DNA from: Nitrospirota bacterium
Lineage (GTDB): Bacteria > Nitrospirota > Nitrospiria > Nitrospirales > Nitrospiraceae
Direction of reading: 5' to 3'
DNA: 64,000 nt
NCBI GenBank assembly: GCA_004296885.1
Contig: SCVN01000016.1
Coordinates: 124,001-188,000, forward strand
Shown here: in pieces, positions 7,896 through 34,722 of the stretch
Position numbering within the stretch: the first letter of the stretch is position 1
How the letters are laid out: every line of letters starts with the position of its first letter
Program-made: the position numbers and the translations under genes
Notes under the pieces: model-generated
What the model saw: the letters and a program-made list of their open reading frames with translations, nothing else
Databases searched by the model: none
What the model was told of the DNA's origin: nothing

Positions 7896-8993
7896 ATGCA
7901 ACCGCGAGAGTTTCACGACGGGGCCCAAGACGGGCTTGAAGCGCTGGAGTCGCTCGATCCCGAACGCATCCGATCGTTTTCGGACCTGCTGGTCGCGATG
8001 CGGAAGACCGCGTTCGGCGGGCGCCGTCTCGGCGAGGCGTTCGAGGTGCTCTGGGCCATGATCGAAGACCCGGACTGCCATGTCGTGCTGACCCTGTCCG
8101 GCGCGATGACCATCGCCAAGATGGGCAAGATCATCAGCGGCATGATCGATCACGGGATGGTCCAGGCCGTGGTGTCGACCGGCGCGCTCATCGCGCATGG
8201 GCTCAGCGAGTCGGTGGGGAAGACCCATTACCGGCACGATCCGGCCATGACCGATCAGGACCTGTTTCAGAAAGGCTACAACCGCGTCTACGACACGCTG
8301 GAGATGGAATCCAACCTGAATTATGTCGAGCAGGTCGTTTCGCGGACGCTCAAGCGGATTTCTCCCGATCAACTGCTGTCGTCCGAGATGCTGACCCGCG
8401 AGTTGGGCCAGACCCTGGTCGAGGAGCATGAGGGAACCGGCATCCTCAAGAGCGCCTACATCAAGAACGTGCCGGTCTATATCCCGGCGTTTACCGATTC
8501 CGAGATGGGGCTCGACGTGGCGACCTGGGCGATGGGGCGGGCGCTGGATCGGGCCCGCAGCCAGGCCAAGGACGATGCCGCGGTGCTGCGCGCCTTGCAC
8601 CAGGTGCAGCCCTCCTTCAATCCCTATCTGGACTTGAACAGTTATGCCGACCGGATGCTGTCCGCCAAGCGGCTGGGCATCGTGACGATCGGCGGCGGGG
8701 TGCCCAGGAATTGGGCCCAGCAAGTCGCCCCCTACGTGGAGATCAGCAATGTCCGGTTGGGCCTGGACGTCAAGCCGCCGCGCTTCCAGTACGGGGTCCG
8801 GATCTGCCCGGAGCCGGATTACTGGGGGGGGCTCAGCGGCTGCACCTACCAGGAAGGCATTTCCTGGGGGAAGTTCGTGCCTCCCGAGGAAGGCGGCCGG
8901 TTTGCGGAAGTGTTGAGCGATGCGACGGTGGTCTGGCCGCTCTTGATGGTGGGCCTGCTGGAACGATTGCGTCACAAACCGGCCCAGTCCTGA
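7896..8993 (+). CDS. Deoxyhypusine synthase-like protein, possible homospermidine synthase
   Basis: A 365-residue NAD-dependent enzyme of the deoxyhypusine synthase fold. The family's catalytic lysine is present: K326 in GISWGKF corresponds to the lysine that forms an imine with the aminobutyl group in the human enzyme. Nucleotide-binding features such as LTLSGAMTIAKMGKII, STGALIAHGL and TIGGGVPRNW are conserved. Bacteria lack eIF5A, the normal substrate; some bacterial members are known or proposed to make homospermidine from putrescine. Arginine decarboxylase and agmatinase, which make putrescine, lie 3-5 kb downstream on the same strand, supporting a polyamine role. GAGGAG at 7881-7886 sets the start. 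Substrate is inference. Confidence 0.85.
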   Translation: MQPREFHDGAQDGLEALESLDPERIRSFSDLLVAMRKTAFGGRRLGEAFEVLWAMIEDPDCHVVLTLSGAMTIAKMGKIISGMIDHGMVQAVVSTGALIAHGLSESVGKTHYRHDPAMTDQDLFQKGYNRVYDTLEMESNLNYVEQVVSRTLKRISPDQLLSSEMLTRELGQTLVEEHEGTGILKSAYIKNVPVYIPAFTDSEMGLDVATWAMGRALDRARSQAKDDAAVLRALHQVQPSFNPYLDLNSYADRMLSAKRLGIVTIGGGVPRNWAQQVAPYVEISNVRLGLDVKPPRFQYGVRICPEPDYWGGLSGCTYQEGISWGKFVPPEEGGRFAEVLSDATVVWPLLMVGLLERLRHKPAQS

Positions 8994-9035
8994 GCCGAGC
9001 CAAGCGGTACGCGCCTGGCGGGACCCTCGATCCGG

Positions 9036-9410
9036 ATGAAGATGCCCGCACCACGCCCTGTCCCACCCCCGTACAGTACCGACCCGGCGCGGTTGGCGCG
9101 CGAGGTGGTCGTGGAGACCTGTCGCGCCGGGGGGCCCGGCGGCCAGCATCGCAACGTGACGGATTCGGCGGTGCGGCTGCTGCATGTACCCTCGGGTGTG
9201 CAGGTGACGGCGAGCGAGTCGCGCTCGCAGCACCGCAACCGGGCGGTGGCCTGGGAGCGGCTGATCGCCAGGCTGGAGCGGTTGAACCGGGTGCCGGCCA
9301 AGCGGGTACCGACACGGCGGTCGAAAGGCGCGGTCGAACGTCGGTTGGCCGAAAAGAAACGGCGCCAGGCGGCCAAGCGGCTGCGCACCACCGCGCGAAA
9401 CGAAGAATAA
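9036..9410 (+). CDS. Class I release-factor-like GGQ protein
   Basis: A 124-residue stand-alone catalytic domain of peptide chain release factors. The GGQ loop (RAGGPGGQHRN) that hydrolyses peptidyl-tRNA is intact. The rest, AVRLLHVPSGVQVTASESRSQHRNRAVAWERL, matches domain 3 of release factors, and a basic C-terminal tail (KKRRQAAKRLRTTAR) resembles the ribosome-binding tail of ArfB/YaeJ. There is no codon-recognition domain. A role in rescue of stalled ribosomes is likely but the exact subfamily is not clear. It starts 42 bases after the DHS-like gene and is probably co-transcribed. Confidence 0.8.
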   Translation: MKMPAPRPVPPPYSTDPARLAREVVVETCRAGGPGGQHRNVTDSAVRLLHVPSGVQVTASESRSQHRNRAVAWERLIARLERLNRVPAKRVPTRRSKGAVERRLAEKKRRQAAKRLRTTARNEE

Positions 9411-9444
9411 CAGACGGTACTAAGGCAGCGGTAACAGGGGACAC

Positions 9445-10140
9445 GTGAAAAGAACAGAACCGACGACATTGTCAAAACCCCGCCTACATCCGAGGCGGCC
9501 ACGGTGGCATGGCTCCCTGTGCCTTGTGACGGTTGTCCTCTTGATGACCGCAGCGGACGTGCGCGGGGAGGGCCTGGATTTTCTGCTGCGCGAAGACGGC
9601 CGGCTGCGAGGCAACGTCAAGGCGCCGGTGACTCTCATCGAATATTCCGACTTCACCTGCGGGTTCTGCCAAAAGTGGTTTCAGGAAACCTGGCCGCGCA
9701 TTCAGGCCAAGTATGTGGACACCGGCAAGGTCCGGTTTTCCTATCGGGACTTTCCGAGGGCGTTCCAGGGGCCGGGACTGGACGGGGCGCTCGCATCCCG
9801 TTGTGCCGGCGAGCAGAACCGGTACTGGGCCATGCACGATGAGTTGTGGGGCGACCGGCGGCTCGGCGCGGAAGACCTGCAACGCCACGCCAAAGCTATC
9901 AAGCTGGATCTGCCGGCCTTCTCCAAATGTATGCGCGAAGAGCGCCACACGGATGACATCTTTCGGGATCGGGCGGAGGGGACGATTTTGGGTTTCCGGG
10001 GGACGCCGGGATTCGTTCTTGTTCGGACCGACTCGTCCGAGAAGGATCCGCCGGTGGTCATCCCTGGCGCCTTCCCGTTCGACGTGTTTGAGGAGCAGAT
10101 CGATCGCCTGTTGGGGGAAGGGGCAAAAGGGAAGCGTTGA
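9445..10140 (+). CDS. DsbA-family thiol-disulfide oxidoreductase
   Basis: A 231-residue exported protein. After a long basic N-region (KPRLHPRRPRWH) there is a hydrophobic stretch at about 24-37 acting as signal or anchor. The thioredoxin fold carries C72-G-F-C75 (SDFTCGFCQKW) and a cis-proline in FRGTPGF. The inserted helical domain and the pattern around CAGEQNRYWAMHDELW match the DsbA/ScoI-like group (thioredoxin_4), which handles disulfides of periplasmic proteins, including c-type cytochromes. A third and fourth cysteine (SRCAGE, FSKCMRE) are present. Same strand as its neighbours. Confidence 0.85.
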   Translation: MKRTEPTTLSKPRLHPRRPRWHGSLCLVTVVLLMTAADVRGEGLDFLLREDGRLRGNVKAPVTLIEYSDFTCGFCQKWFQETWPRIQAKYVDTGKVRFSYRDFPRAFQGPGLDGALASRCAGEQNRYWAMHDELWGDRRLGAEDLQRHAKAIKLDLPAFSKCMREERHTDDIFRDRAEGTILGFRGTPGFVLVRTDSSEKDPPVVIPGAFPFDVFEEQIDRLLGEGAKGKR

Positions 10141-10228
10141 GTCGGCTCGGGAGTTGAATTCCCTGCGCGGGGAGCCTATGCTCTCCGGCAGGACCCGCAT
10201 CATCGCGGGAGCACATGGGAAAGGAATC

Positions 10229-10507
10229 ATGGCGCACGAACAAGCATTTTGGCCGGTCGAATGTGGAGAAGGGGAGCCGGATTTGCTGGTCTGCATGTCC
10301 TGCCTGAGCGAAGTCTTTCGGCGCAAGGTGCCGATGCCGGACTGTCCGACCTGCCACGGGGTCTCCACGTATGAAGCCTTTACCGTGGACTCGATCCAGG
10401 ATTGGGGGACCGACGAACTCATTGCCAAAGCGCGGGTGGCGCAACAGGATGTGAGTCTGCCTCCGGTCCAGACCAACGACTTCTCTGCGGTCGAATTACC
10501 TGAATAA
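10229..10507 (+). CDS. Small zinc-ribbon-like protein of unknown function
   Basis: A 92-residue protein with two CxxC pairs, CMSCLSEVF and DCPTCHG, about 20 residues apart, a likely zinc ribbon. The acidic C-terminal half (DWGTDELIAKARVAQQ... FSAVELPE) has no known motif. No signal peptide, so cytoplasmic. The ATG at 10229 follows GGGAAAGGA; an in-frame ATG at 10180 would add 16 residues. It lies between the DsbA-like and aldehyde dehydrogenase genes. Confidence 0.65.
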   Translation: MAHEQAFWPVECGEGEPDLLVCMSCLSEVFRRKVPMPDCPTCHGVSTYEAFTVDSIQDWGTDELIAKARVAQQDVSLPPVQTNDFSAVELPE

Positions 10508-14809: not shown

Positions 14810-15601
14810 CTAGTTTCGGGAGACTCCCGGATCCGTGCCTTCCAGCGGCAGGGAGAAAGGCGTGGGCTCTTTGGGCTCGGTGCGGATGAGGGGCTGGCTG
14901 GGCGAGACGGAGGTGGGAGCCGGTCGGAGCCCGACGAAGAGGTTCAGCAACGCAATCACGAAACTGCCGATCAAGAGGGAGCTGCTCGTGTTCCGGATCG
15001 TGCGGGTTCCTTCGTCGCGCATGTCCTTGGCCACATCCGCCACGGTCTCGAGCAGGCGGTCCAGCGCAAGACTGACCTGAATCAACTTGGGGCCGGCGTT
15101 GTCCGCGGCCTGCAGTTCGGCTTGATGCCGCAGCTCGGCCGCCTCTTGGGGCGACTTGGCGATCCACACCTGCGTCAGCAGGTTGATGGTCCGGCTGGCC
15201 GCCGAAAAGTAGGCGTCCAGGCTTTCCCGCACCGCCTGAATATCCTGAGGTTCGCTCCGACCGCTGCGCGACACGCGCAGGCTGGCGGAGGCGTAGCGGT
15301 CCACCGCATGCTGAATGCGGGCGTGCCGCTCGGGCAGGGACTTGGTGATCTTCTCGAATTCCTTTTGGCTCGGGGCTTCCAGCGCGCGCACGACCGACGT
15401 GCGGTAACGGATGACGTCGGCCGAGATGTGCGCGAGGTCCGTCGCGGCCAGCGTGTACTCCGTGTACATGATGCGCAGGTCACGGTCCACCTGGCTGAGC
15501 GCTTCGGCGCCCAAGAGGCCCAGGCTGGCGACCGATAAGCTGACCAGGAACTGACCCCAGGTGGGGCGCAGCATCCTCCATGTCAGGCGATCTCCGAACA
15601 T
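14810..15601 (-). CDS. Membrane protein with four-helix-bundle sensor domain, no output domain
   Basis: A 263-residue protein with a membrane helix at about 15-35, a periplasmic helical domain of the 4HB_MCP type (DRDLRIMYTEYTLAATDLAHISADV and on to about 210), and a second membrane helix near 211-228 (LLIGSFVIALLNLFVGL). It ends with about 35 proline-rich cytoplasmic residues and has no HAMP, methyl-accepting, kinase or GGDEF part. It is the last gene of the minus-strand exporter locus, 89 bases after the second ABC gene, so it may serve as a sensor or accessory subunit of that exporter. Function is inference. Confidence 0.7.
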   Translation of the reverse strand: MFGDRLTWRMLRPTWGQFLVSLSVASLGLLGAEALSQVDRDLRIMYTEYTLAATDLAHISADVIRYRTSVVRALEAPSQKEFEKITKSLPERHARIQHAVDRYASASLRVSRSGRSEPQDIQAVRESLDAYFSAASRTINLLTQVWIAKSPQEAAELRHQAELQAADNAGPKLIQVSLALDRLLETVADVAKDMRDEGTRTIRNTSSSLLIGSFVIALLNLFVGLRPAPTSVSPSQPLIRTEPKEPTPFSLPLEGTDPGVSRN

Positions 15602-15690
15602 CCGTCCTCTCCTTGCGGGCGATCACTCCGGCCCGCACCTGTCAATCTATCAGATCGGCCCGACCAAAAGAAGCCCGACGGAGGCCAGTC

Positions 15691-17367
15691 TCAATCCAGC
15701 TGGAGCCGCCGGTCTACGTGCGCGCTCAGGGCCGGGTCGTTGGATACGAAAATGAGCGACCAGGGCTCTTCCTTGCTGCACAGACGCCGAAGGATCGTGT
15801 CGCGGACGGTGGGCTGCATGCTGTGGAGCGTGCCGTCCAGGATCAGCAGCTGGGGGCGCGTGACGATCGCCCGCGCCACGAGCAGGCGCAGGATCTGGCT
15901 GGTGGTGAAGCCCCGTCCCTTGGCCTGGACCGGCGTGCGGAGCCCCATCGGCAGCGCATCCACTTCTTCTTCCATCTCGACGAACCGAAGTGCCCACAAG
16001 AGGTCGGTATAGGGAATCCCGGGCCGCCCCACCGTGATGTTCTCTTCCAGCGTGCCCTCGAACAGGGAGAGTTGGGAGTCGAGAATCAGGCCTCGGCAGG
16101 CGTTCAACGATTCCAGGTCCAGATCGCGGATGTCCACGCCGTTGTATCGGATGACGCCCGATGTGGGAAGGTAGAGCCCGGCCAGCACCCGCGCCAGGGT
16201 GGTTTTGCCGGTGCTGTTCTTCGAAAAGACGGCGATCTTTTCGCCGGGCACGAGTTCCATGCTGAAGCCATCGAAGATCGGGGCCGAGCCGGGATAGGCG
16301 AAGCAGAGGTCTTTGCACGTGAGCCGGACGCCATGGATCGTCGGGTCCGGCAGGGGCACGGTCAGCTTGGCGATTTCCTGATCTTTGGGCAGGGAGAACA
16401 AGTAATCCAACTCGGTCAGCGCGGTGAAAAAGTAGAACACGGTGCCCATCCGCTTGACGATCCCGTCGAAACTCACCAGTAACCCGCCGACGATCGCCTC
16501 CGCCGCCACGAACTGCCCGAGCGTCAGTTGGCCGATGGAGAGCAGCCAGCCGGCCGTGGCGATCAGGCCGCCGTGGGCCACGGCTTGCCAGCCGAGCGAG
16601 CCCATGTACTGGCGCATCAGGATCGTAAAGCGCGTCCCTCTGGCTTCCACGTAGGCCTGCACGTGTTCGTCGGTTTTCTGCAGCAGGAGCGGGGCGCTGA
16701 CGGTGGACTTGAAATGGGTCAGGTTGCCGGAGATTTCCTGCAACCAGTTGAACGTCTCGTACTTGGCGTGGGACATGGCGAGCGTGGAGCGGAGCCCGCC
16801 TTGGCTGAGCAGGGTGATCACCACCGCGAAGCCGCTGACCAGCAGGACGTTGTAGAGCAGAAAATAAGGATGGTACATGACCAGGATCGTCATGCCGACG
16901 GTTCCGCCGACCACCACGTTGATGATGTCTACGATCATGGCCGAGAGCGCCCGCTGCATGAGCACGGTCTCGAAGAAATAGTTCGTATACTTGGGCGGGA
17001 AAGTCTCTTCCCGGAACCGGGGGAATTGCTGGGTCAGTCCGAGCGCCACCCGGGCGAAGAGTCGCCGTTCGAGGACTTCCACCGCATAAAACTGCAAGGC
17101 TTTAAAGGCGCCCACGAACAAGAGGCTGCAGACCAGAATTGCGGCCAGGGTGACGATCATGATCGGCTGGATGGCGAAGGCGAAGGTATTGACCAGTTCT
17201 TGCACGGTCAACGGCACGATGAGCGCGAAAAGTCCGATGGCCAGAGCGTAGGAGGCAAGCAGGCCGAACACATCCCGCTCGAGCCGGAAGAACAGGCTCA
17301 ACCGGGCGATCATGCTGCGGAGCAAATCGCCGTGAGCCGGCTGGTTATCAGGCCCGTCCGCGTGCAT
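15691..17367 (-). CDS. ABC half-transporter with non-canonical ATPase motifs (second of pair)
   Basis: A 558-residue protein with a type-IV ABC exporter membrane domain (about 30-320) fused to a nucleotide-binding domain (345-558). The motifs are altered: Walker A is S382-KNSTGKT (two glycines replaced by serine, GKT kept), the signature is FTTSQ at 487-491 instead of LSGGQ, Walker B LLILD is followed by G512 where the catalytic glutamate belongs, the Q-loop position is serine (LDSQLSLF), and the H-loop reads SND with N543. The upstream paralogue, about half identical, has the same changes, so this is a conserved state and not recent decay. Lies in an adaptor-channel-exporter locus. Confidence 0.85.
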   Translation of the reverse strand: MHADGPDNQPAHGDLLRSMIARLSLFFRLERDVFGLLASYALAIGLFALIVPLTVQELVNTFAFAIQPIMIVTLAAILVCSLLFVGAFKALQFYAVEVLERRLFARVALGLTQQFPRFREETFPPKYTNYFFETVLMQRALSAMIVDIINVVVGGTVGMTILVMYHPYFLLYNVLLVSGFAVVITLLSQGGLRSTLAMSHAKYETFNWLQEISGNLTHFKSTVSAPLLLQKTDEHVQAYVEARGTRFTILMRQYMGSLGWQAVAHGGLIATAGWLLSIGQLTLGQFVAAEAIVGGLLVSFDGIVKRMGTVFYFFTALTELDYLFSLPKDQEIAKLTVPLPDPTIHGVRLTCKDLCFAYPGSAPIFDGFSMELVPGEKIAVFSKNSTGKTTLARVLAGLYLPTSGVIRYNGVDIRDLDLESLNACRGLILDSQLSLFEGTLEENITVGRPGIPYTDLLWALRFVEMEEEVDALPMGLRTPVQAKGRGFTTSQILRLLVARAIVTRPQLLILDGTLHSMQPTVRDTILRRLCSKEEPWSLIFVSNDPALSAHVDRRLQLD

Positions 17368-17522
17368 ACGCTGCCCAGTGCCAGGCCGGAGTCGCCGCCG
17401 AGGCGTCGGGGCGGACTCTCGCCTTCCCTCGGACCCCCGCCTCTGGGGCCCGTAAACGACCCTAGACTAGCAGAGGAGGCGGAAAAAAGCCACAGGACGT
17501 GCGGGGAGTGAAGGGGAGCCGG

Positions 17523-19214
17523 TCAGGCCACGGTCACGCGCCGGCCGACATGCTCGATCAGCAGCGGATCGTTGGAGACGAAGATGACGGACCAGGGCTC
17601 CTCTTTGGAGCAGAGCCGCCGGAGGATGATGTCGCGGGTCGTGGACTCCATATTGTGCAGGGTTCCGTCGAAGATCAGAAGCTGCGGGCGCGTGATGACG
17701 GCCCGCGCGACCAGGATGCGCAGGATTTGGCTGGACGTGAAGGCCTTCCCGCGCGCCTGGATCGGCGTGTGCAGGCCCAAGGGCATGGTTTCCACCTCCT
17801 CATCCAGTTCGGCGAAGCGGAGCGCCCATTGGATATCCTCGTATTGAATGCCCTTCCGTCCCATGGTGATGTTTTCTTCCAAGGTCCCGCCGAAGAGGGT
17901 GAGGCGGGAGTCCAGCACCAGCCCTCGGCAGGTGTTGAGACTCTCCATGTCCAGGTCGCGCAGGTCCACGTCGTTGTATCGAATCACCCCCGTGGTGGGG
18001 GCATGGATCCCGGCCAGGACCAATGCCAGCGTGGTTTTGCCCGTGCTGGTGCCGGAGAGGAGGGCGATTTTTTCGCCCGGCCCCACGTCCAGATTGAAGT
18101 GTTCGAAGATCGGGGGCGCAGAGGGGAAGGCAAACGACAAATCTTTGCAGGTCAGCCGGACGCCATGCAGGGTGGGATCGGGAAGCGCGACAGACATCCG
18201 GCCCGGCTCCGTGTCCCGGGGATGGGCAAAGAGGGTGGCGAGCTCATGCATGGAGGTGAAGGCGTAGATCAACGCATACATGCGCCGGGCCAGCGTATCC
18301 AGGTGGATGAGCAAGGCGCCGACGATGACCTCCGCCGCCACGAACTGCCCCAGCGTCAATTGGCCGGCGGCCATCAGCCAGCCGGCCGTGGCGATCAATC
18401 CGCTGTGTCCCAAGGCCTGCCACAGCACGGCCCCTTTGTATTGTCGCCCGGTCAGGATGTCGGAGCGTGTCTTGCGGGCCATGACGTAGGCCCGGACCAC
18501 CTCGTCCGTCTTCTTGAGCAGGAGCGGCATGCTGGCGGTGGATTTAAAGTGCAGCTGATTGTGGGCCACGTCCTGCAGCCAGTTCAGGGTCTGATAATGC
18601 AGGTCCGACACTTTCATCGTGATCAACAGGCCGCCGCGGCCGAACGTGGTGACGACGAAGGCAAACCCGCCGATCAGGATGACGTTGTAGAGCAGGAAAT
18701 AGGGATGGTACATGACCAGGATCGTCATGCCGATGCATCCGCCGATCGCCACGTTGATCAAGTCCGTCAGCATGGCGACCAGCGCCCGCGGCAGGAACTC
18801 CGCCTCCGCAAAGCGGTTGGCATGATGGGGAAGGAAACGGTCTTCGCGAAACTTGGGCAATTGCTCGGTGAGGGCCAGCGCGATGCGGGTGTAGAGACGT
18901 TGGACCAGGATTTCGACCGCGCGGGCTTGCAGCACGCGGAGGGCGCCGATGAAGATCAGCGTGACCGCCATGACGCCGGCCAGGGTCACGATCATGATCG
19001 GCTGGATGGCGAAGGCGAAGGTGTTGGTCATCTCCTGGACGGTCAACGGGACGATCAGGGCGAAGAGCCCGATGCCCAGGGCATAGGCCACGATGATGCC
19101 CAGGATCTTTCGCTCGATCCGCAGGAACAACCCGAGCCGGGCCAACGTGGCCTTGAGGAGGCCGCTCTGGTCGATCGGAACGTCGTAGGGCGCGTCGTGG
19201 CCAGGAACGCTCAT
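17523..19214 (-). CDS. ABC half-transporter with non-canonical ATPase motifs (first of pair)
   Basis: A 563-residue membrane/ATPase fusion paralogous to the next gene downstream; many blocks such as NTFAFAIQPIMIVTLA and GMTILVMYHPYFLLYNV are the same in both. The nucleotide-binding domain carries SGTSTGKT (387-394) for Walker A, FTSSQ (492-496) for the signature, LLIFD followed by G517 for Walker B, serine at the Q-loop (LDSRLTLF), and N548 at the H-loop. The two probably form a heterodimer with an HlyD adaptor and TolC channel. It starts 21 bases after the channel gene with a GGAG-type ribosome site. Substrate unknown; ATP hydrolysis by the usual mechanism is doubtful. Confidence 0.85.
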   Translation of the reverse strand: MSVPGHDAPYDVPIDQSGLLKATLARLGLFLRIERKILGIIVAYALGIGLFALIVPLTVQEMTNTFAFAIQPIMIVTLAGVMAVTLIFIGALRVLQARAVEILVQRLYTRIALALTEQLPKFREDRFLPHHANRFAEAEFLPRALVAMLTDLINVAIGGCIGMTILVMYHPYFLLYNVILIGGFAFVVTTFGRGGLLITMKVSDLHYQTLNWLQDVAHNQLHFKSTASMPLLLKKTDEVVRAYVMARKTRSDILTGRQYKGAVLWQALGHSGLIATAGWLMAAGQLTLGQFVAAEVIVGALLIHLDTLARRMYALIYAFTSMHELATLFAHPRDTEPGRMSVALPDPTLHGVRLTCKDLSFAFPSAPPIFEHFNLDVGPGEKIALLSGTSTGKTTLALVLAGIHAPTTGVIRYNDVDLRDLDMESLNTCRGLVLDSRLTLFGGTLEENITMGRKGIQYEDIQWALRFAELDEEVETMPLGLHTPIQARGKAFTSSQILRILVARAVITRPQLLIFDGTLHNMESTTRDIILRRLCSKEEPWSVIFVSNDPLLIEHVGRRVTVA

Positions 19215-19235
19215 GCCTGACTCTCTCCGGCCTCC

Positions 19236-20744
19236 TTACTTATCGAACGCGCGCGACGGTTGATAGCTCACGGGGATGGCCGAGGCGGGAGCCTTGGCCC
19301 AGGCCCCAATGGCCCACTGGTACATGGCGAGGGCTTTCTGGTAATCGGACTGCGCCCTGATCCACTGGGCCTCCGAATCCACGGTGTTGCGCTCGCGCAG
19401 ATTCACGAAGAGCACGCTCGTGGCACCCAGGCTGAACCGGAACCGTTCGCCTTCTTCCAACGTCCGGGCCATTTGGAGGGACTGTTGGGCGGCGGTAATC
19501 CGTTCCTTGGCCCGCTCCATGGCGGAGAGAGAATTGTCCACATCCACCGCCACCTGCTGCTGACGGAACAACTGGACCAACACGAGCCGGTCCGCCTTCC
19601 CCTGGGCTTCGAGCACCTCGCCCTTGCTGCGGCGCTGCATGAACGGTATCCGCAGTTCCAGGCCGAATTTATACCCGAGACCCAGCACGAATTTTTCCGG
19701 GGTGCGGGACGGCGTAGCCTCCGCATCCAGGCTGGGCAGGAGGTTGTTTTTCGCCAGTTCCAGATCGATGTTGTTCAGCTGGGCCTCGATCGAAATCGCC
19801 CGGATCTCGGGCCGCGCCGACTTGGCGTTGATCTTGTCGGCCAGCACCGTTTCAGCCGACGGGAGGCTCGTCACCCTGGGGAAATCGGCCACCCGTTCTC
19901 CGCCGGGGACGATCGGGGTATCCCGTTCCCAGAGGAACATGGAGAACTTGTACTGTTCCTGTTCGACAAGCCTGGTGGCGGCGATGAACGCCTCGCGCCG
20001 GCGCTGGACTTCCTGGTTGGCTTCGACCACATCCAGCGGCGCCACCGCTCCGGCTTTGGCGCGTCCCTCCACCTGCTTGTACCGGTCTTCCGCGACCTTC
20101 AGCGCGCGTTTGTGGACATCGGCGAATTTCCAGGCGGCGATCCAATCCCAGTATTGGCTCGCCCCCGCCAGAAACAGGTCCTGCCTGGTCTGGGCGACTT
20201 GAACGTCCGCCCGCGGGTCCGCGAGGCCGGACCGTTGGAGTTCGGCATTCTCCGGATTCACCATGAGCCCGCGGAGTAAGGGCATGGAGGCTCCCACGAG
20301 GATCTGTTCCCGGTTGCCGTCGAATCCGAGATCCGGAATCCTCGCATTGCCGATCACCTTCCGGTAGCCGGCCATGCCCTTGAAGCCGGAAGGATCCCTA
20401 AAGTCCAAGAAGGTGTCGTTGAACCCGGCGGTCTGAAGGGATTTCGACGGATCACTGGAAGAAATGAACCGTTCGATTTCGGAATCGTTCACGAGCGTGG
20501 GCTCGAAGGCGCCGAGAGCTTTCAGCATGCGGCCCCTGGCCACGACCTTTTCGGTGCCCGCGCCTTTCAGCAGCGGGTGAGACCGGTCCACCCAGGCCAG
20601 CACTTCGTCGAGCGAGAGCGGAATCGGCGGCAAGGCCTTGGTTTTCCCGTCGGCTGCGGCCGCGGCCGCGAACGCCGGGAGTTCGAGGAACGCAGCGGCG
20701 CACAGCAGCGCCGCCAGCATGATGACGGTACGTAGGCGAATCAT
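19236..20744 (-). CDS. TolC-like outer membrane efflux protein
   Basis: A 502-residue exported protein of the outer membrane efflux (OEP) family. The signal peptide is MIRLRTVIMLAALLCAAAFLE, with cleavage near AFAAAAAA. Two long helical repeats typical of TolC-like channels are visible (for example VVEANQEVQRRREAFIAATR and QQQVAVDVDNSLSAMERAKERI). AAAGGAG eleven bases upstream fixes the start at MIRLRTV. Preceded by the adaptor gene and followed by the two ABC genes on the same strand, it should be the exit duct of this tripartite exporter. Confidence 0.87.
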   Translation of the reverse strand: MIRLRTVIMLAALLCAAAFLELPAFAAAAAADGKTKALPPIPLSLDEVLAWVDRSHPLLKGAGTEKVVARGRMLKALGAFEPTLVNDSEIERFISSSDPSKSLQTAGFNDTFLDFRDPSGFKGMAGYRKVIGNARIPDLGFDGNREQILVGASMPLLRGLMVNPENAELQRSGLADPRADVQVAQTRQDLFLAGASQYWDWIAAWKFADVHKRALKVAEDRYKQVEGRAKAGAVAPLDVVEANQEVQRRREAFIAATRLVEQEQYKFSMFLWERDTPIVPGGERVADFPRVTSLPSAETVLADKINAKSARPEIRAISIEAQLNNIDLELAKNNLLPSLDAEATPSRTPEKFVLGLGYKFGLELRIPFMQRRSKGEVLEAQGKADRLVLVQLFRQQQVAVDVDNSLSAMERAKERITAAQQSLQMARTLEEGERFRFSLGATSVLFVNLRERNTVDSEAQWIRAQSDYQKALAMYQWAIGAWAKAPASAIPVSYQPSRAFDK

Positions 20745-20872
20745 GGGAGGTTCTCCTTTCTCCATACGAGGAACCGAGATGATGACCGAGGGCAGCTGGA
20801 ATGAACGCGGCTGGGCCGGCGCCGGTGGAGGGGCCGGGAAGGAAGGCCGACCATGCACGTGAGCGGCAGAAC

Positions 20873-22309
20873 CTACTTCGCACCTCGACCGGCTTTGGGT
20901 AAGAGCGTGTCGAGCAACGTCGGCGGGCCCTCCTGATAATCGGGCGGGAAGAGATTGAACCGCCGCCACAGCTCATACCACAGGGGGACCCGATTCAGAA
21001 TCACCCAGCCCATCACTTTGGTGCCTTGGCGGACGTGAGCTTGCTCCGGCCAGGGCCGCTCGTCCGGGTCCGGCACGACCCAGAAACGGAAGTTGCCCTT
21101 GCCGTTGTCCACCTGGTCCACGACTTTGATGATCCCGCCGTACGTGCCGGCCATGAGTTCGGGCCAGGCGGGGAGGGGGATGGCCGGGATGCCGTAGAAG
21201 AGCAGGCGGACTTTGCGGCCGGCGTTCAACAGCGGCGCGTCGAGCCCGTCCGCGAGCATCTCGCAGGCCTTATCCGCGCTGGTGGGGGAGATTTGCACGA
21301 GCCGGTCGCCGACCTTGACGGTCTCGCCGGGGCCGACTTCCGCCATGCGGACGACTGTGCCGTCAATCGGGGCCAGCACGCGGCTGGCGATGCGCCGCTG
21401 TGTGGCGTTGGAGAGGCGCAGCCCCACATTGGCGAGCTGGTCGGCGGCCCGCGCCGCCTCCGCCAGGGCGCCGGCCCGTTGGGCCTCGGCGTCCATGAGG
21501 CGTTGCAGGACCTCGGCGCTGATCTGATCGCGGCCGAAGCTCAGGGCGCGCATGCCCTGTTTGGCTTCCTTCAGCGTGGCCTCCGCTCCCTGCAGATCGG
21601 CCTTGCTGGCGATGGCGCCTTGAATGGACAGTTCCAGCTCGCGTTGCGACACGAGCCCCTGGGTCGCCAGTTCCTTGTGCCGGTTGACGTTCAGTTCCGC
21701 GGTGTCCACCGCGATCTTGGCGGAGACGACGCGCTGCTCGGACGCCCGCACTTTATTTTCAGCTTCGAGCACGCGGGCTTCGGCCGAGGGAACCGCCGCC
21801 CTGACCAAGTTCTGCATTTCTTTGATCCGGTCGGTCAACTGGTCGGCGCGTTCCAAGGCCGCTTTTCGGTTCTGTGCCAAAGCTTCTTTCTGTTGTTCGA
21901 GCAGCGGCAGCAGGTCGGGCGCCATGAAGCTCGGGTCCACATCGCGCAATTCCACGATCATGTCCCCTTGCTTCACCCGGCTGCCCTCGAAGACGTGCCA
22001 CTTGTTGACCTGCGCCGCAATCTGCGCCTCGATGTCTTGCGGCCGTTCGTAGGGCGAATAGGCGGAGAGCTGGCCGGTCACCGTGACCGTCTGGGTCCAG
22101 GGGACGAAGGCGATGACCAGGGTAAACAGCAGGATCAGCTTGATCGCCAGCCTGGCGTTGAACTTCAGCCGCTCGGGGATCTGGACGGCTTCCCAGGATT
22201 GGAGCTTGGCGGAGGTGGCGAGGTCGTCGACCTGGATGTCTTCCAGTCCCGTCGGATGCGTGACGAGGGCTTGCATCCGGCCCTTAATGCTGGCTTTCAG
22301 ATCGGGCAT
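20873..22309 (-). CDS. HlyD-family membrane fusion protein
   Basis: A 478-residue periplasmic adaptor. The cytoplasmic N-terminus of about 50 residues is followed by a single membrane helix at 52-70 (LAIKLILLFTLVIAFV), a biotinyl-lipoyl-like half (KWHVFEGSRVKQGDMIVEL), a long coiled coil at about 130-300, the second half (SRVLAPIDGTVVRMAEVGPGETVKVGDRLVQI), and a beta-barrel domain. Adaptors of this size join an inner-membrane ABC exporter to a TolC channel, as in type I secretion or microcin export. It is the first gene of the minus-strand locus and is divergent from purE; the gap between them must hold both promoters. Confidence 0.87.
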   Translation of the reverse strand: MPDLKASIKGRMQALVTHPTGLEDIQVDDLATSAKLQSWEAVQIPERLKFNARLAIKLILLFTLVIAFVPWTQTVTVTGQLSAYSPYERPQDIEAQIAAQVNKWHVFEGSRVKQGDMIVELRDVDPSFMAPDLLPLLEQQKEALAQNRKAALERADQLTDRIKEMQNLVRAAVPSAEARVLEAENKVRASEQRVVSAKIAVDTAELNVNRHKELATQGLVSQRELELSIQGAIASKADLQGAEATLKEAKQGMRALSFGRDQISAEVLQRLMDAEAQRAGALAEAARAADQLANVGLRLSNATQRRIASRVLAPIDGTVVRMAEVGPGETVKVGDRLVQISPTSADKACEMLADGLDAPLLNAGRKVRLLFYGIPAIPLPAWPELMAGTYGGIIKVVDQVDNGKGNFRFWVVPDPDERPWPEQAHVRQGTKVMGWVILNRVPLWYELWRRFNLFPPDYQEGPPTLLDTLLPKAGRGAK

Positions 22310-32910: not shown

Positions 32911-32996
32911 GTCGAAAAGTCTATAAAGTCGTACAGTCCTCAAGTCCGAAGATTAGGCCGCTGGCTTGATGGACTTTCAGACTTTCCAACTTTCTG
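32911..32996. repeat. Heptad/octad-type hairpin repeat (AAAGTC words)
   Basis: GTCGAAAA, GTCTATAAA, GTCGTACA, GTCCTCAA repeat with a spacing of 8-9 bases; GGACTTTCAGACTTTCCAAC on the right pairs back imperfectly. The stop and last codons of the minus-strand ABC gene (ESWKV) lie in the right arm. Acts at the junction of two convergent genes. Confidence 0.65.
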
Positions 32997-34722
32997 CCTG
33001 CATTTCTTCCACGCGCAGCGTATAGAGGTAGTGGTAGAGCCCCTTCTGCTCCATGAGCGAGGCGTGGGTGCCTTGCTCGACGATCCGGCCCTTGCTCAGC
33101 ACTAAAATCCGGTCGGCCTTTTGAATCGTAGTGAGGCGGTGAGCCACGACGATCGTGGTCCGTCCGGCCATCAACCGGTCCAGCGCCTCTTGCACCAACC
33201 GCTCGGACTCGGCATCCAGAGCTGATGTCGCTTCGTCGAGCATCAGAATTCTCGGGTTCTTCAGCACCGCCCGCGCGATCGCCAGCCTCTGTCTCTGCCC
33301 GCCGGAGAGGTTGACGCCCTTCTCGCCGACCACCGTCTGATACCCGTCCGGCATGGCGGTGATGAAGTCGTGGGCGTTGGCGGCGCGGCTGGCGGCCATG
33401 ATGTCGGCCTCGGTGGCCGTTTCTCGCCCGTAGCGGATATTCTCCAAGATGGTCCCTCCGAACAGGACCGTCTCCTGGGGTACCAGGGCAATCTGCCGGT
33501 ACAAACTGTCCAGCCGGATATGTCGGAGGTCATAGCCGTCGATCGTCAGCCGGCCGATTGTTGGGTCGTAAAAGCGATGCAGGAGGTTCACGAGGGTCGT
33601 TTTCCCCGAGCCGGTCGGGCCGACCAAGGCGATCACTTCGCCCGGCTTCGCCTCGAAGGAGACGTCCGAGAGGACCGGCTGCCTGGGGTCGTAGGCGAAG
33701 CTGACCGCGTCGGCCTTGACATGGCCGGCGATGGGCGGCAGGTCAATCGCATCAGGCCGGTCGTGAATCTCCGGTTGGGTGTCGAGGATCTCGAACACCC
33801 GTTGCATGGCGCCCTGGGCTTCCTTGATCTGGGCGAAGACCCGGGCCGCGGAGCCGAAGGGGCCGATCAGGATGCCGGCGAAGAGGACGAAGGCGAACAG
33901 ATCCCCCGGCGACACGGCCCCGTCGATCACCTGCCGGCCTCCGTACCAGAGGACCGCCGCGGCGGCCGCGAACGTTAGCAGGGTGATGGTCGGGACGAAC
34001 AGGGCCAGGACCGTTGCGCGGCGCAGGGCGAGCTGCAGGGCTTGTTGCGAATAGCGGGCGAACCGCGCCTCCTCCCTGGCGGTCTGCACGAAGGACTTGA
34101 CCACGCGGATACCCGACAGGACCTCTTCCGCCAGCGTCGTGACGGAGGCGGTCTGGTCTTGCATGGAGGTCGAGAGCGCGCGGAGTTTTTTCCCGAAGAA
34201 ACGGGCGACCAGGACCAGGAGGGGGAGCAGCAGCAAGATCAGCAGGCAGAGCCGCCAGTTCATGACGAGCAGGAAGGCGACGCCGCCGATGAAGGTGACC
34301 ACCTGCTTGGCCGAGTCGATCGGCGTTTCGGTCACGGTGGCCTGGATTACGCCCACGTCGTTCATGAGGCGGGAGAGGATTTCCCCGGTGCGGCGTTTGG
34401 CGAAGAAGCTGAGGGAGAGCCGCTGCAGGTGGCCGAACAGGTGGGTCCGGAAGTCGGCCATGATGCGCTGGGAAACCCAGGCGGTGAGGTAACTATGGCC
34501 CATCGAAAGCAGGCCTTGGGCCAGGACCAGACCGAGAAAGAGGCCGATCGTGCGGGTCATGCCGGCGGCGTCGTGCCGGACCGTGATGATGTCCCACAGG
34601 AAGCCGGCCAGCCGCAGCAAGGCCAGGTTCAACAGGGCCACGGCCATGACCAGCACGGCCGCCCCGGCCATCTGCGGCAGGTAGGGTCTGAGGAACGGCA
34701 GAAAGCGGGAGTAGTAGGACAT
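32977..34722 (-). CDS. MsbA-type ABC exporter (ATPase/permease)
   Basis: A 581-residue half-transporter: six membrane helices in about 15-310 and a nucleotide-binding domain at about 340-575. In contrast to the pair at 15.7-19.2 kb, all motifs are canonical: GPTGSGKTT (Walker A), LVPQETVLFGG (Q-loop), LSGGQRQRLAIARA (signature), ILMLDEATSALD (Walker B) and VAHRLTT (H-loop). Sequence style is that of MsbA/lipid flippases, so it probably moves lipid A core or another lipid across the inner membrane as a homodimer. Start ATG at 34722. Confidence 0.9.
   Translation of the reverse strand: MSYYSRFLPFLRPYLPQMAGAAVLVMAVALLNLALLRLAGFLWDIITVRHDAAGMTRTIGLFLGLVLAQGLLSMGHSYLTAWVSQRIMADFRTHLFGHLQRLSLSFFAKRRTGEILSRLMNDVGVIQATVTETPIDSAKQVVTFIGGVAFLLVMNWRLCLLILLLLPLLVLVARFFGKKLRALSTSMQDQTASVTTLAEEVLSGIRVVKSFVQTAREEARFARYSQQALQLALRRATVLALFVPTITLLTFAAAAAVLWYGGRQVIDGAVSPGDLFAFVLFAGILIGPFGSAARVFAQIKEAQGAMQRVFEILDTQPEIHDRPDAIDLPPIAGHVKADAVSFAYDPRQPVLSDVSFEAKPGEVIALVGPTGSGKTTLVNLLHRFYDPTIGRLTIDGYDLRHIRLDSLYRQIALVPQETVLFGGTILENIRYGRETATEADIMAASRAANAHDFITAMPDGYQTVVGEKGVNLSGGQRQRLAIARAVLKNPRILMLDEATSALDAESERLVQEALDRLMAGRTTIVVAHRLTTIQKADRILVLSKGRIVEQGTHASLMEQKGLYHYLYTLRVEEMQAESWKV

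Follow-up and report, generated by a model that had tools for sequence, protein, structure and literature searches.

HlyB-like half-exporters without consensus ATPase motifs, encoded with HlyD and TolC in Nitrospira and more distant bacteria

Introduction

What does a tripartite exporter do when neither of its ATP-binding cassette (ABC) subunits retains a consensus ATPase site? The question is raised by a locus in the Nitrospira-type genome GCA_004296885.1 (G000; 3.26 Mb in 23 contigs), whose closest named relatives are metagenome-assembled genomes (MAGs) of Nitrospira and Nitrospirota. Within the stretch of 64,000 nucleotides that we analysed (the window; positions 124001-188000 of contig C16), five co-oriented genes on the minus strand, from 22309 to 14810, encode in this order a periplasmic adaptor (HlyD), an outer-membrane channel (TolC), two ABC half-exporters (ABC-B, then ABC-A) and a four-helix-bundle (4HB) protein. 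The genes are separated by about 128, 21, 155 and 89 bases and probably form one operon. Tripartite exporters are described as energised by ABC, resistance-nodulation-division (RND) or major facilitator superfamily (MFS) pumps (PMC8277102); where we found degenerate ABC exporters described, they keep one working site (PMC7756269). A preliminary description of the locus had proposed that both ABC subunits lack the standard catalytic motifs, and that the system either works without normal ATP hydrolysis or has a new ATPase site chemistry. We favour, with a probability of about 0.62, the reading that it belongs to a pseudo-ATPase branch of type I secretion-like exporters and acts as an ATP-independent gated conduit, with membrane domains that anchor HlyD and TolC and a pseudo-nucleotide-binding domain (pseudo-NBD) that is a scaffold or regulatory.

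Results

Both half-exporters of the window depart from the consensus. The Walker A motif GxxGxGK(S/T) has become SKNSTGKT in ABC-A and SGTSTGKT in ABC-B, with serine at glycines 1 and 4; glycine 3, the lysine and the threonine are still there in both. The Q-loop glutamine is serine (LDSQ and LDSR in the pair), LSGGQ reads FTTSQ in ABC-A and FTSSQ in ABC-B, Walker B has changed from LILDE to LILDG or LIFDG (aspartate kept, glutamate now glycine), the H-loop histidine is asparagine in both, and the D-loop SALD is HSMQ or HNME. As both half-exporters are degenerate, no consensus site is left in the A/B dimer. The replacements reported earlier are all present, together with the D-loop change, which had not been listed; Walker A Gly3-Lys-Thr and the Walker B aspartate persist in the window pair, although the lysine, threonine and aspartate have gone from many relatives. 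The paralogy of the two subunits also stands, at a measured identity of 62% rather than about half.

Alignment error was rejected as an explanation. In the genome of the window, seven canonical ABCs, including an MsbA-like exporter in the window itself (32977-34722) that has every motif intact and serves as an internal control, carry intact motifs at the same alignment columns (GxxGxGK(S/T), Q, LSGGQ-like, DE/DD, H), as do several Nitrospinaceae ABCs. Because these canonical proteins align with their motifs in place, the motif loss is not an artefact.

The degenerate state is shared by a wide set of relatives (pseudo-ABCs). A scan of 84,980 species genomes with exact peptide patterns returned 75 loci, nearly all from Nitrospira, and the consensus motifs are gone in every one of the approximately 100 ABCs read from them; members from the sister family and from Nitrospinota are likewise degenerate. 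With intact reading frames in the window and properly aligned controls, this bears out the motif departures in both genes, and no close homologue with canonical motifs was found among the approximately 100 read. Whole-genome profile searches, which covered Nitrospirota and the phylum of the Nitrospinaceae locus, placed the family in 61 of 246 Nitrospirota genomes, solely in two families (f1 and f2) of one order, and in 7 of the 77 genomes of the Nitrospinaceae-locus phylum at E below 1e-200. An eighth match in that phylum (G303) is a canonical ABC and was set aside. Nitrospira-type loci also occur in two MAGs labelled Armatimonadetes (L019) and Acidimicrobiia (L054); these are probably mis-binned Nitrospirota contigs and were left out of the phylum count.

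More distant relatives are found on plasmids. When the membrane-domain-only protein described below was compared by tblastn with 72,556 plasmids, 22 records matched at about 30% identity, in Sphingomonadales and Bacteroidota; a second query again returned 22 records with equal genus counts. The annotated loci that we read show ABC, HlyD and TolC genes together, with one exception, a Sphingopyxis plasmid (L145:5944-7371) on which the end of the pseudo-ABC is overlapped by an IS3 transposase gene and no adjacent hlyD or tolC is annotated. In the 16 plasmid records in which motifs were read, all are degenerate. Sphingomonadales members have no recognisable motif, and in the two proteins scanned the match to the Pfam ABC domain is gone. 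Bacteroidota members keep traces, such as the P-loop-like GDTASGKS of Riemerella, which stands without a signature, Walker B aspartate or histidine. On a Persicobacter plasmid (L148:5500-7674) the pseudo-ABC carries an extra N-terminal domain of about 150 aa that aligns to the N-terminal part of LssB; it is possibly C39-like, judging from this alignment, hinting at an ancestry among PCAT or type I secretion system (T1SS) proteins. Nitrospirota and the Nitrospinaceae-locus phylum were thus sampled by genome, and other phyla through the pattern scan and plasmids rather than by systematic searches of their chromosomes.

In two trees of the membrane domain, 31 pseudo-ABCs all fall on one side of a 100/100 branch and the canonical ABCs (13 and 14, the second set including PCAT, T1SS and NHLP types) on the other. 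The trees support a single origin of the pseudo-ABCs within our sample; as the canonical set is small and the branches long, a canonical relative might still be nested on the pseudo-ABC side.

In one lineage the NBD is missing altogether. Three loci of sister family f2 (L092, L093 and L136) encode a protein of 337-346 aa that stops after the membrane domain. In the first two, hlyD and tolC lie directly ahead of it, the locus has no detectable NBD, and an intergenic stretch and then a DabB-like gene come after it; DabB-like DNA also follows the membrane-domain gene in L136. Pairwise ratios of nonsynonymous to synonymous substitution (dN/dS) among these proteins are 0.23-0.29. Partial matches in two other genomes (G353 and G347) either reach a contig end or are spread over separate contigs, and we did not count them as NBD-less. 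The earlier suggestion that the system works without normal ATP hydrolysis is strengthened by such relatives.

The partner genes have been retained along with the pseudo-ABCs. Across the genus the gene order is kept, as are the flanking genes, which by eye look purE/purK-like at one end and rluB-like at the other, and three layouts recur: hlyD-tolC-ABC-ABC-4HB, as in the window; hlyD-tolC-ABC-4HB, with one ABC; and tolC-ABC with hlyD after or opposite and no 4HB gene. In some loci of the third layout a single pseudo-ABC and HlyD come after a tandem array of three diverged TolC paralogues (L062, L074, L077, L079, L080, L084 and a second set in L073), which suggests a heterotrimeric outer-membrane channel. 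Co-occurrence of the partners is found for hlyD and tolC, which adjoin the ABC gene, stand-alone paralogues excepted, in almost every locus whose flanks are long enough. It does not extend to the 4HB gene, which was found only in Nitrospiraceae and not in the sister-family, Nitrospinota, Sphingomonadales or Bacteroidota loci examined.

The window encodes an ABC protein, a membrane-fusion protein and a TolC together, as a T1SS requires. Its HlyD has an N-terminal cytosolic segment, a single transmembrane (TM) helix, an alpha hairpin and a lipoyl domain. The hairpin tip carries RxxxLxxxxxxS, the TolC-docking motif of AcrA, MacA and HlyD adaptors (PMC3391258). The HlyDs of the NBD-less systems keep it too, and 86 of 94 HlyDs were positive in a search with this pattern, which is also able to match elsewhere in the protein.

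An AlphaFold2 model of ABC-A, built from a 57-sequence alignment (mean pLDDT 77.9), has as its best PDB match HlyB of the HlyB/HlyD complex (8dck; TMq 0.88; VIA Z 29.7, rmsd 2.7 over 537 residues), next to PCAT1 (Z 28.6) and TmrAB (Z 28.5). The predicted fold is that of a type IV (HlyB/MsbA-like) exporter, at Z 26-30 to HlyB, PCAT1, TmrAB and MsbA. No Pfam match to a MacB/FtsX-type membrane domain was found in the window ABCs, and the structural matches listed are exporter-type. The predicted fold, being HlyB-type, would lend no support to a MacB-like form of the mechanotransmission that had been suggested. For the 4HB protein (P0005), AlphaFold2 places a periplasmic four-helix-bundle domain between two TM helices and about 40 low-confidence residues, a cytosolic tail, after the second. 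The model weakly resembles 4HB chemoreceptor ligand-binding domains (TMt about 0.8; Foldseek E-values above 0.001). Its periplasmic core is strongly conserved, with an invariant core in 27 orthologues, and Pfam finds no HAMP, MCP, kinase or cyclase output domain. The Pfam matches and models together uphold the earlier identification of a tripartite HlyD/TolC exporter whose operon also encodes a 4HB sensor protein.

Selection has kept these proteins while the former active site has drifted. Compared with its closest orthologues (L016, L017 and L056), the window has a dN/dS of 0.10-0.18 for the NBD and 0.05-0.27 for the membrane domain; the NBD values span 0.09-0.25 when all computed pairs are taken, and HlyD gives 0.02-0.05. 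The Walker B change from glutamate to glycine is present in 95 of 97 aligned rows. In the 57-row alignment that glycine (G512) and the residues H515 and D544 show no or almost no variation; the serine that replaces the Q-loop glutamine (S431) is nearly invariant within Nitrospiraceae. Elsewhere in the former site, the Walker A glycines vary among A, S, T and C, the lysine is replaced in a number of orthologues (RMS, RHR), the Walker B aspartate is E or N in some systems, the A-loop tyrosine is variable, and the signature passes from FTTSQ through FAPTH to PAPTH. Across 15 motif positions the mean entropy is 1.47 bits against an NBD average of 1.20, a value reached by 10% of random sets. Because it is no lower than the average, the motif positions, G512 and S431 excepted, are not specially conserved as a group. 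What had been described as identical replacements held by selection therefore applies to the glutamate-to-glycine change and, within Nitrospiraceae, to the glutamine-to-serine change, with the new H515 and D544; for the remaining replacements the paralogues simply share ancestry. The broader claim that neither site is a normal ATPase and that selection maintains this state agrees with the NBD dN/dS of about 0.1-0.2, and these ratios, together with four conserved residues amid drift, fit a retained non-catalytic role rather than a new active site.

Pseudo-ABCs also occur outside the tripartite operon. A third copy in the window's genome (C6:49210-50850) stands alone without adjacent hlyD or tolC. 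In this genome (L091:9178-13704, on C6) and in L099 and L101, the gene immediately downstream of a stand-alone paralogue encodes a PAS histidine kinase, and in all three loci read an NtrC-type sigma-54 regulator follows. By coordinates, paralogue and kinase are adjacent in six genomes (G000, G218, G055, G224, G073 and G151); in other genomes the kinase occurs without the paralogue. Another stand-alone paralogue is found near a family-2 glycosyltransferase gene and a PMT-type (ArnT-like) glycosyltransferase gene (L098, L105, L107 and also L104).

Genes for DabA or DabB (an inorganic-carbon pump) adjoin the system in L092, L093, L136 and L097 and in Sphingobium L144, that is, in three lineages; the linkage is reported as observed, without a statistical test. 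A P-II-like gene lies beside the locus in L092 and L097.

Discussion

We suggest that the gene products assemble into a trans-envelope complex on the plan of a T1SS, in which the inner membrane holds two HlyB-type half-exporters, HlyD serves as adaptor and TolC as channel. The ABC components would be pseudo-ATPases, and to judge from their sequences they very probably do not hydrolyse ATP. A dimer of membrane domains (A/B in the window, A or B alone elsewhere) would anchor and gate the HlyD-TolC duct, and the inert NBDs would serve as a scaffold or regulatory domain, which one sister lineage does without. The TM-4HB-TM protein of Nitrospiraceae may sense a periplasmic ligand or the state of the envelope, with probable control over the gate. 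Any transport would be passive or coupled to an ion gradient rather than driven by ATP. We lean towards a conduit rather than a pure sensor.

Several points weigh against this gated conduit. Walker A Gly3-Lys-Thr and the Walker B aspartate make ATP binding without hydrolysis possible in the window pair. The NBDs, which persist in most members under purifying selection, still do something. The kinase-linked paralogues point to signalling, not transport, in at least those cases. The HlyD and TolC parts could also serve an ABC with catalytic activity whose gene lies elsewhere. Lastly, the conduit function is read from the partners: no gene for an RTX-type or other substrate was recognised near the operon, although T1SS substrates can be unlinked.

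A pure sensor and an ATP-binding switch stand out as rivals; the readings overlap in part, and the likelihoods attached to them need not sum to one. In the former, an ABC-like membrane protein would monitor envelope state or a ligand and signal through the 4HB protein here or a kinase elsewhere, with HlyD and TolC supplying mechanical contact with the outer membrane. Such a pseudotransporter agrees with the paralogue-kinase adjacency in six genomes, with the regulator next in the three loci read, and with a TM-4HB-TM sensor that lacks an output domain in the main operon. We nevertheless think it unlikely, as the kinase is found without the paralogue, the main operon has no kinase, and the examined loci without 4HB still keep TolC, a conduit part. 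Alternatively, A and B may bind ATP without hydrolysing it, so that occupancy decides whether the state is open or closed, as if each side carried a degenerate site. Degenerate sites of known exporters can hold ATP for minutes (PMC7756269), and the window pair keeps the residues just named; across orthologous systems, however, lysine, threonine and aspartate are not conserved, the A-loop tyrosine varies and NBD-less members exist, and we regard the switch, too, as rather doubtful.

It is improbable, in our view, that power is supplied in trans by an active HlyB-type dimer encoded elsewhere, with pseudo-ABC dimers as scaffold in a larger complex. The Hly inner-membrane complex does comprise three HlyB dimers and six HlyD (PMC11026475), and the genome has canonical T1SS-like ABCs (L005, L007 and L008), but these are just 23-25% identical to the pseudo-ABCs, no conserved cluster of canonical ABCs was seen beside the operon, and the operon brings its own HlyD and TolC. 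The new ATPase chemistry proposed in the preliminary description, with substitute catalytic residues such as H515 and D544, could appeal to the newly invariant or nearly invariant G512, H515, D544 and S431. Against it, the phosphate cradle is not conserved, because the P-loop glycines (and the lysine in a number of orthologues) are lost; three genomes have no NBD; and the Pfam ABC domain gives no match to the two scanned Sphingomonadales proteins. We disfavour this chemistry, since drift is seen at most of the former catalytic positions, and consider it very improbable. Motif loss might also signal decaying pseudogenes, and in L094 the B subunit is split, with membrane domain and pseudo-NBD in different overlapping frames (8382-10481, 9655-10272); whether this is a frameshift, a sequencing error or a real split we leave undecided. 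Open frames in nearly all loci, dN/dS of 0.05-0.27 for close orthologues and gene order kept across the group leave decay a negligible chance, and we rejected it on dN/dS and synteny.

Compared with known systems, the gated conduit is closest to the T1SS (HlyB-HlyD-TolC; NCBIfam TIGR03375 LssB, TIGR01846 HlyB). Both have the three-part gene set, HlyB is the best structural match, the ABC proteins score best against bacteriocin-export and T1SS families, and the adaptor keeps its TolC-docking motif. The differences are large: the window ABCs reach 138 and 135 bits against a TIGR03375 cut-off of 693, functional ATPase motifs are absent, as is an N-terminal C39-like domain from the window proteins, there is an extra 4HB protein, and three relatives have lost the NBD. 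Heterodimeric exporters with one degenerate site (TmrAB, TM287/288, TAP, BmrCD, CFTR; PMC7756269) share degenerate residues and two different half-exporters with the window-type layout, but here both halves are degenerate in every motif, and related systems that have a single ABC gene are likewise degenerate. MacA-MacB-TolC, an analogy for the mechanotransmission proposed earlier, is likewise tripartite with an ABC-type inner-membrane protein; MacB has another fold and an intact ATPase (PMC5985334, PMC5673888), whereas the membrane domain of the window is HlyB-type. Like 4HB_MCP_1 chemoreceptors (PF12729), P0005 scores above the Pfam cut-off and resembles their ligand-binding domains; it differs in having no HAMP, MCP signalling, kinase or cyclase domain and in being a fixed partner of a transporter operon. 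A sphingomonad HlyB-HlyD-OMP set, the HlyBD2-OMP2 'ABC-type pump' of Blastomonas fulva, is likened by its authors to Novosphingobium aromaticivorans (PMC9505733). It possibly belongs to the pseudo-ABC clade; in the portion of that article consulted it is reported as an ordinary ABC pump and motifs are not discussed.

We found no dedicated NCBIfam family for the pseudo-ABCs and, in the open-access literature, no description of a fully degenerate ABC exporter clade or of NBD-less members; searches on ATPase-free tripartite systems, on Nitrospira secretion and on links to DabA brought up none either, and those directed at Riemerella and Novosphingobium yielded PMC9505733 alone. What is new here is a pseudo-ATPase, T1SS-like tripartite system as a variant of the known T1SS kind. 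A broader and more tentative reading is that an ancient clade, with members in at least four phyla (Nitrospirota, Nitrospinota, Pseudomonadota and Bacteroidota), turned HlyB-HlyD-TolC into an ATP-free trans-envelope device, driven or gated by an ion gradient, a ligand or a partner such as DabAB, while the NBD was progressively degraded and, in one lineage, deleted. If this is true, it would add a further energisation class of tripartite systems beside ABC, RND and MFS. A multi-phylum clade without a working site, NBD-less members included, is a natural experiment on what an exporter membrane domain and an HlyD-TolC duct do without ATP. The clade is widespread in Nitrospira, a group that holds major nitrite oxidisers, and its members show that a gene labelled 'ABC transporter ATP-binding protein' or 'HlyB' need not have the mechanism which that label implies.

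Features of the locus

A narH family search of the window's genome, bearing on a link to nitrite oxidation, gave solely partial, sub-cut-off matches. Coordinates are collected in Table 1. The start of the TolC gene is most likely the ATG at 20744, because a ribosome-binding site (GGAGAA) lies ahead of it and a signal peptide behind.

Table 1. Positions of the operon genes and former ATPase motifs in the window, and of pseudo-ABC loci with Dab genes in other genomes
Feature	Position	Strand	Basis or remark
HlyD-like periplasmic adaptor P0003, 478 aa	20873..22309	-	Pfam HlyD_3 E=4e-9; NCBIfam type_I_hlyD 59.6 bits (below cut-off)
HlyD hairpin-tip motif RxxxLxxxxxxS (RHKELATQGLVS)	21647..21682	-	exact pattern match
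TolC-family outer-membrane channel P0004, 502 aa, signal peptide	19236..20744	-	Pfam OEP E=2.7e-33
ABC-B degenerate half-exporter P0002, 563 aa	17523..19214	-	intact open reading frame
ABC-B former Walker A SGTSTGKTT	18030..18056	-	translation and family alignment
ABC-B former Q-loop DS (Gln to Ser)	17907..17912	-	translation and family alignment
ABC-B former signature FTSSQ	17727..17741	-	translation and family alignment
ABC-B former Walker B and D-loop LLIFDGTLHNME	17646..17681	-	translation and family alignment
ABC-B former H-loop FVSNDP	17565..17582	-	translation and family alignment
ABC-A degenerate half-exporter P0001, 558 aa	15691..17367	-	intact open reading frame; six-TM exporter fold and pseudo-NBD (AlphaFold2, best PDB match HlyB 8dck)
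ABC-A former Walker A SKNSTGKTT	16198..16224	-	translation and family alignment
ABC-A former Q-loop DS (Gln to Ser)	16075..16080	-	translation and family alignment
ABC-A former signature FTTSQ	15895..15909	-	translation and family alignment
ABC-A former Walker B and D-loop LLILDGTLHSMQ	15814..15849	-	Gly in place of Glu in nearly all of the family; invariant His515 (alignment A2)
ABC-A former H-loop FVSNDP (His to Asn)	15733..15750	-	Asp544 invariant in alignment A2
TM-4HB-TM protein P0005, 263 aa	14810..15601	-	Pfam 4HB_MCP_1 (PF12729) 40.7 bits against cut-off 27
Pseudo-ABC/Dab loci	L092:4444-11728, L093:1997-9744, L097:8723-18001, L144:82-5664, L136

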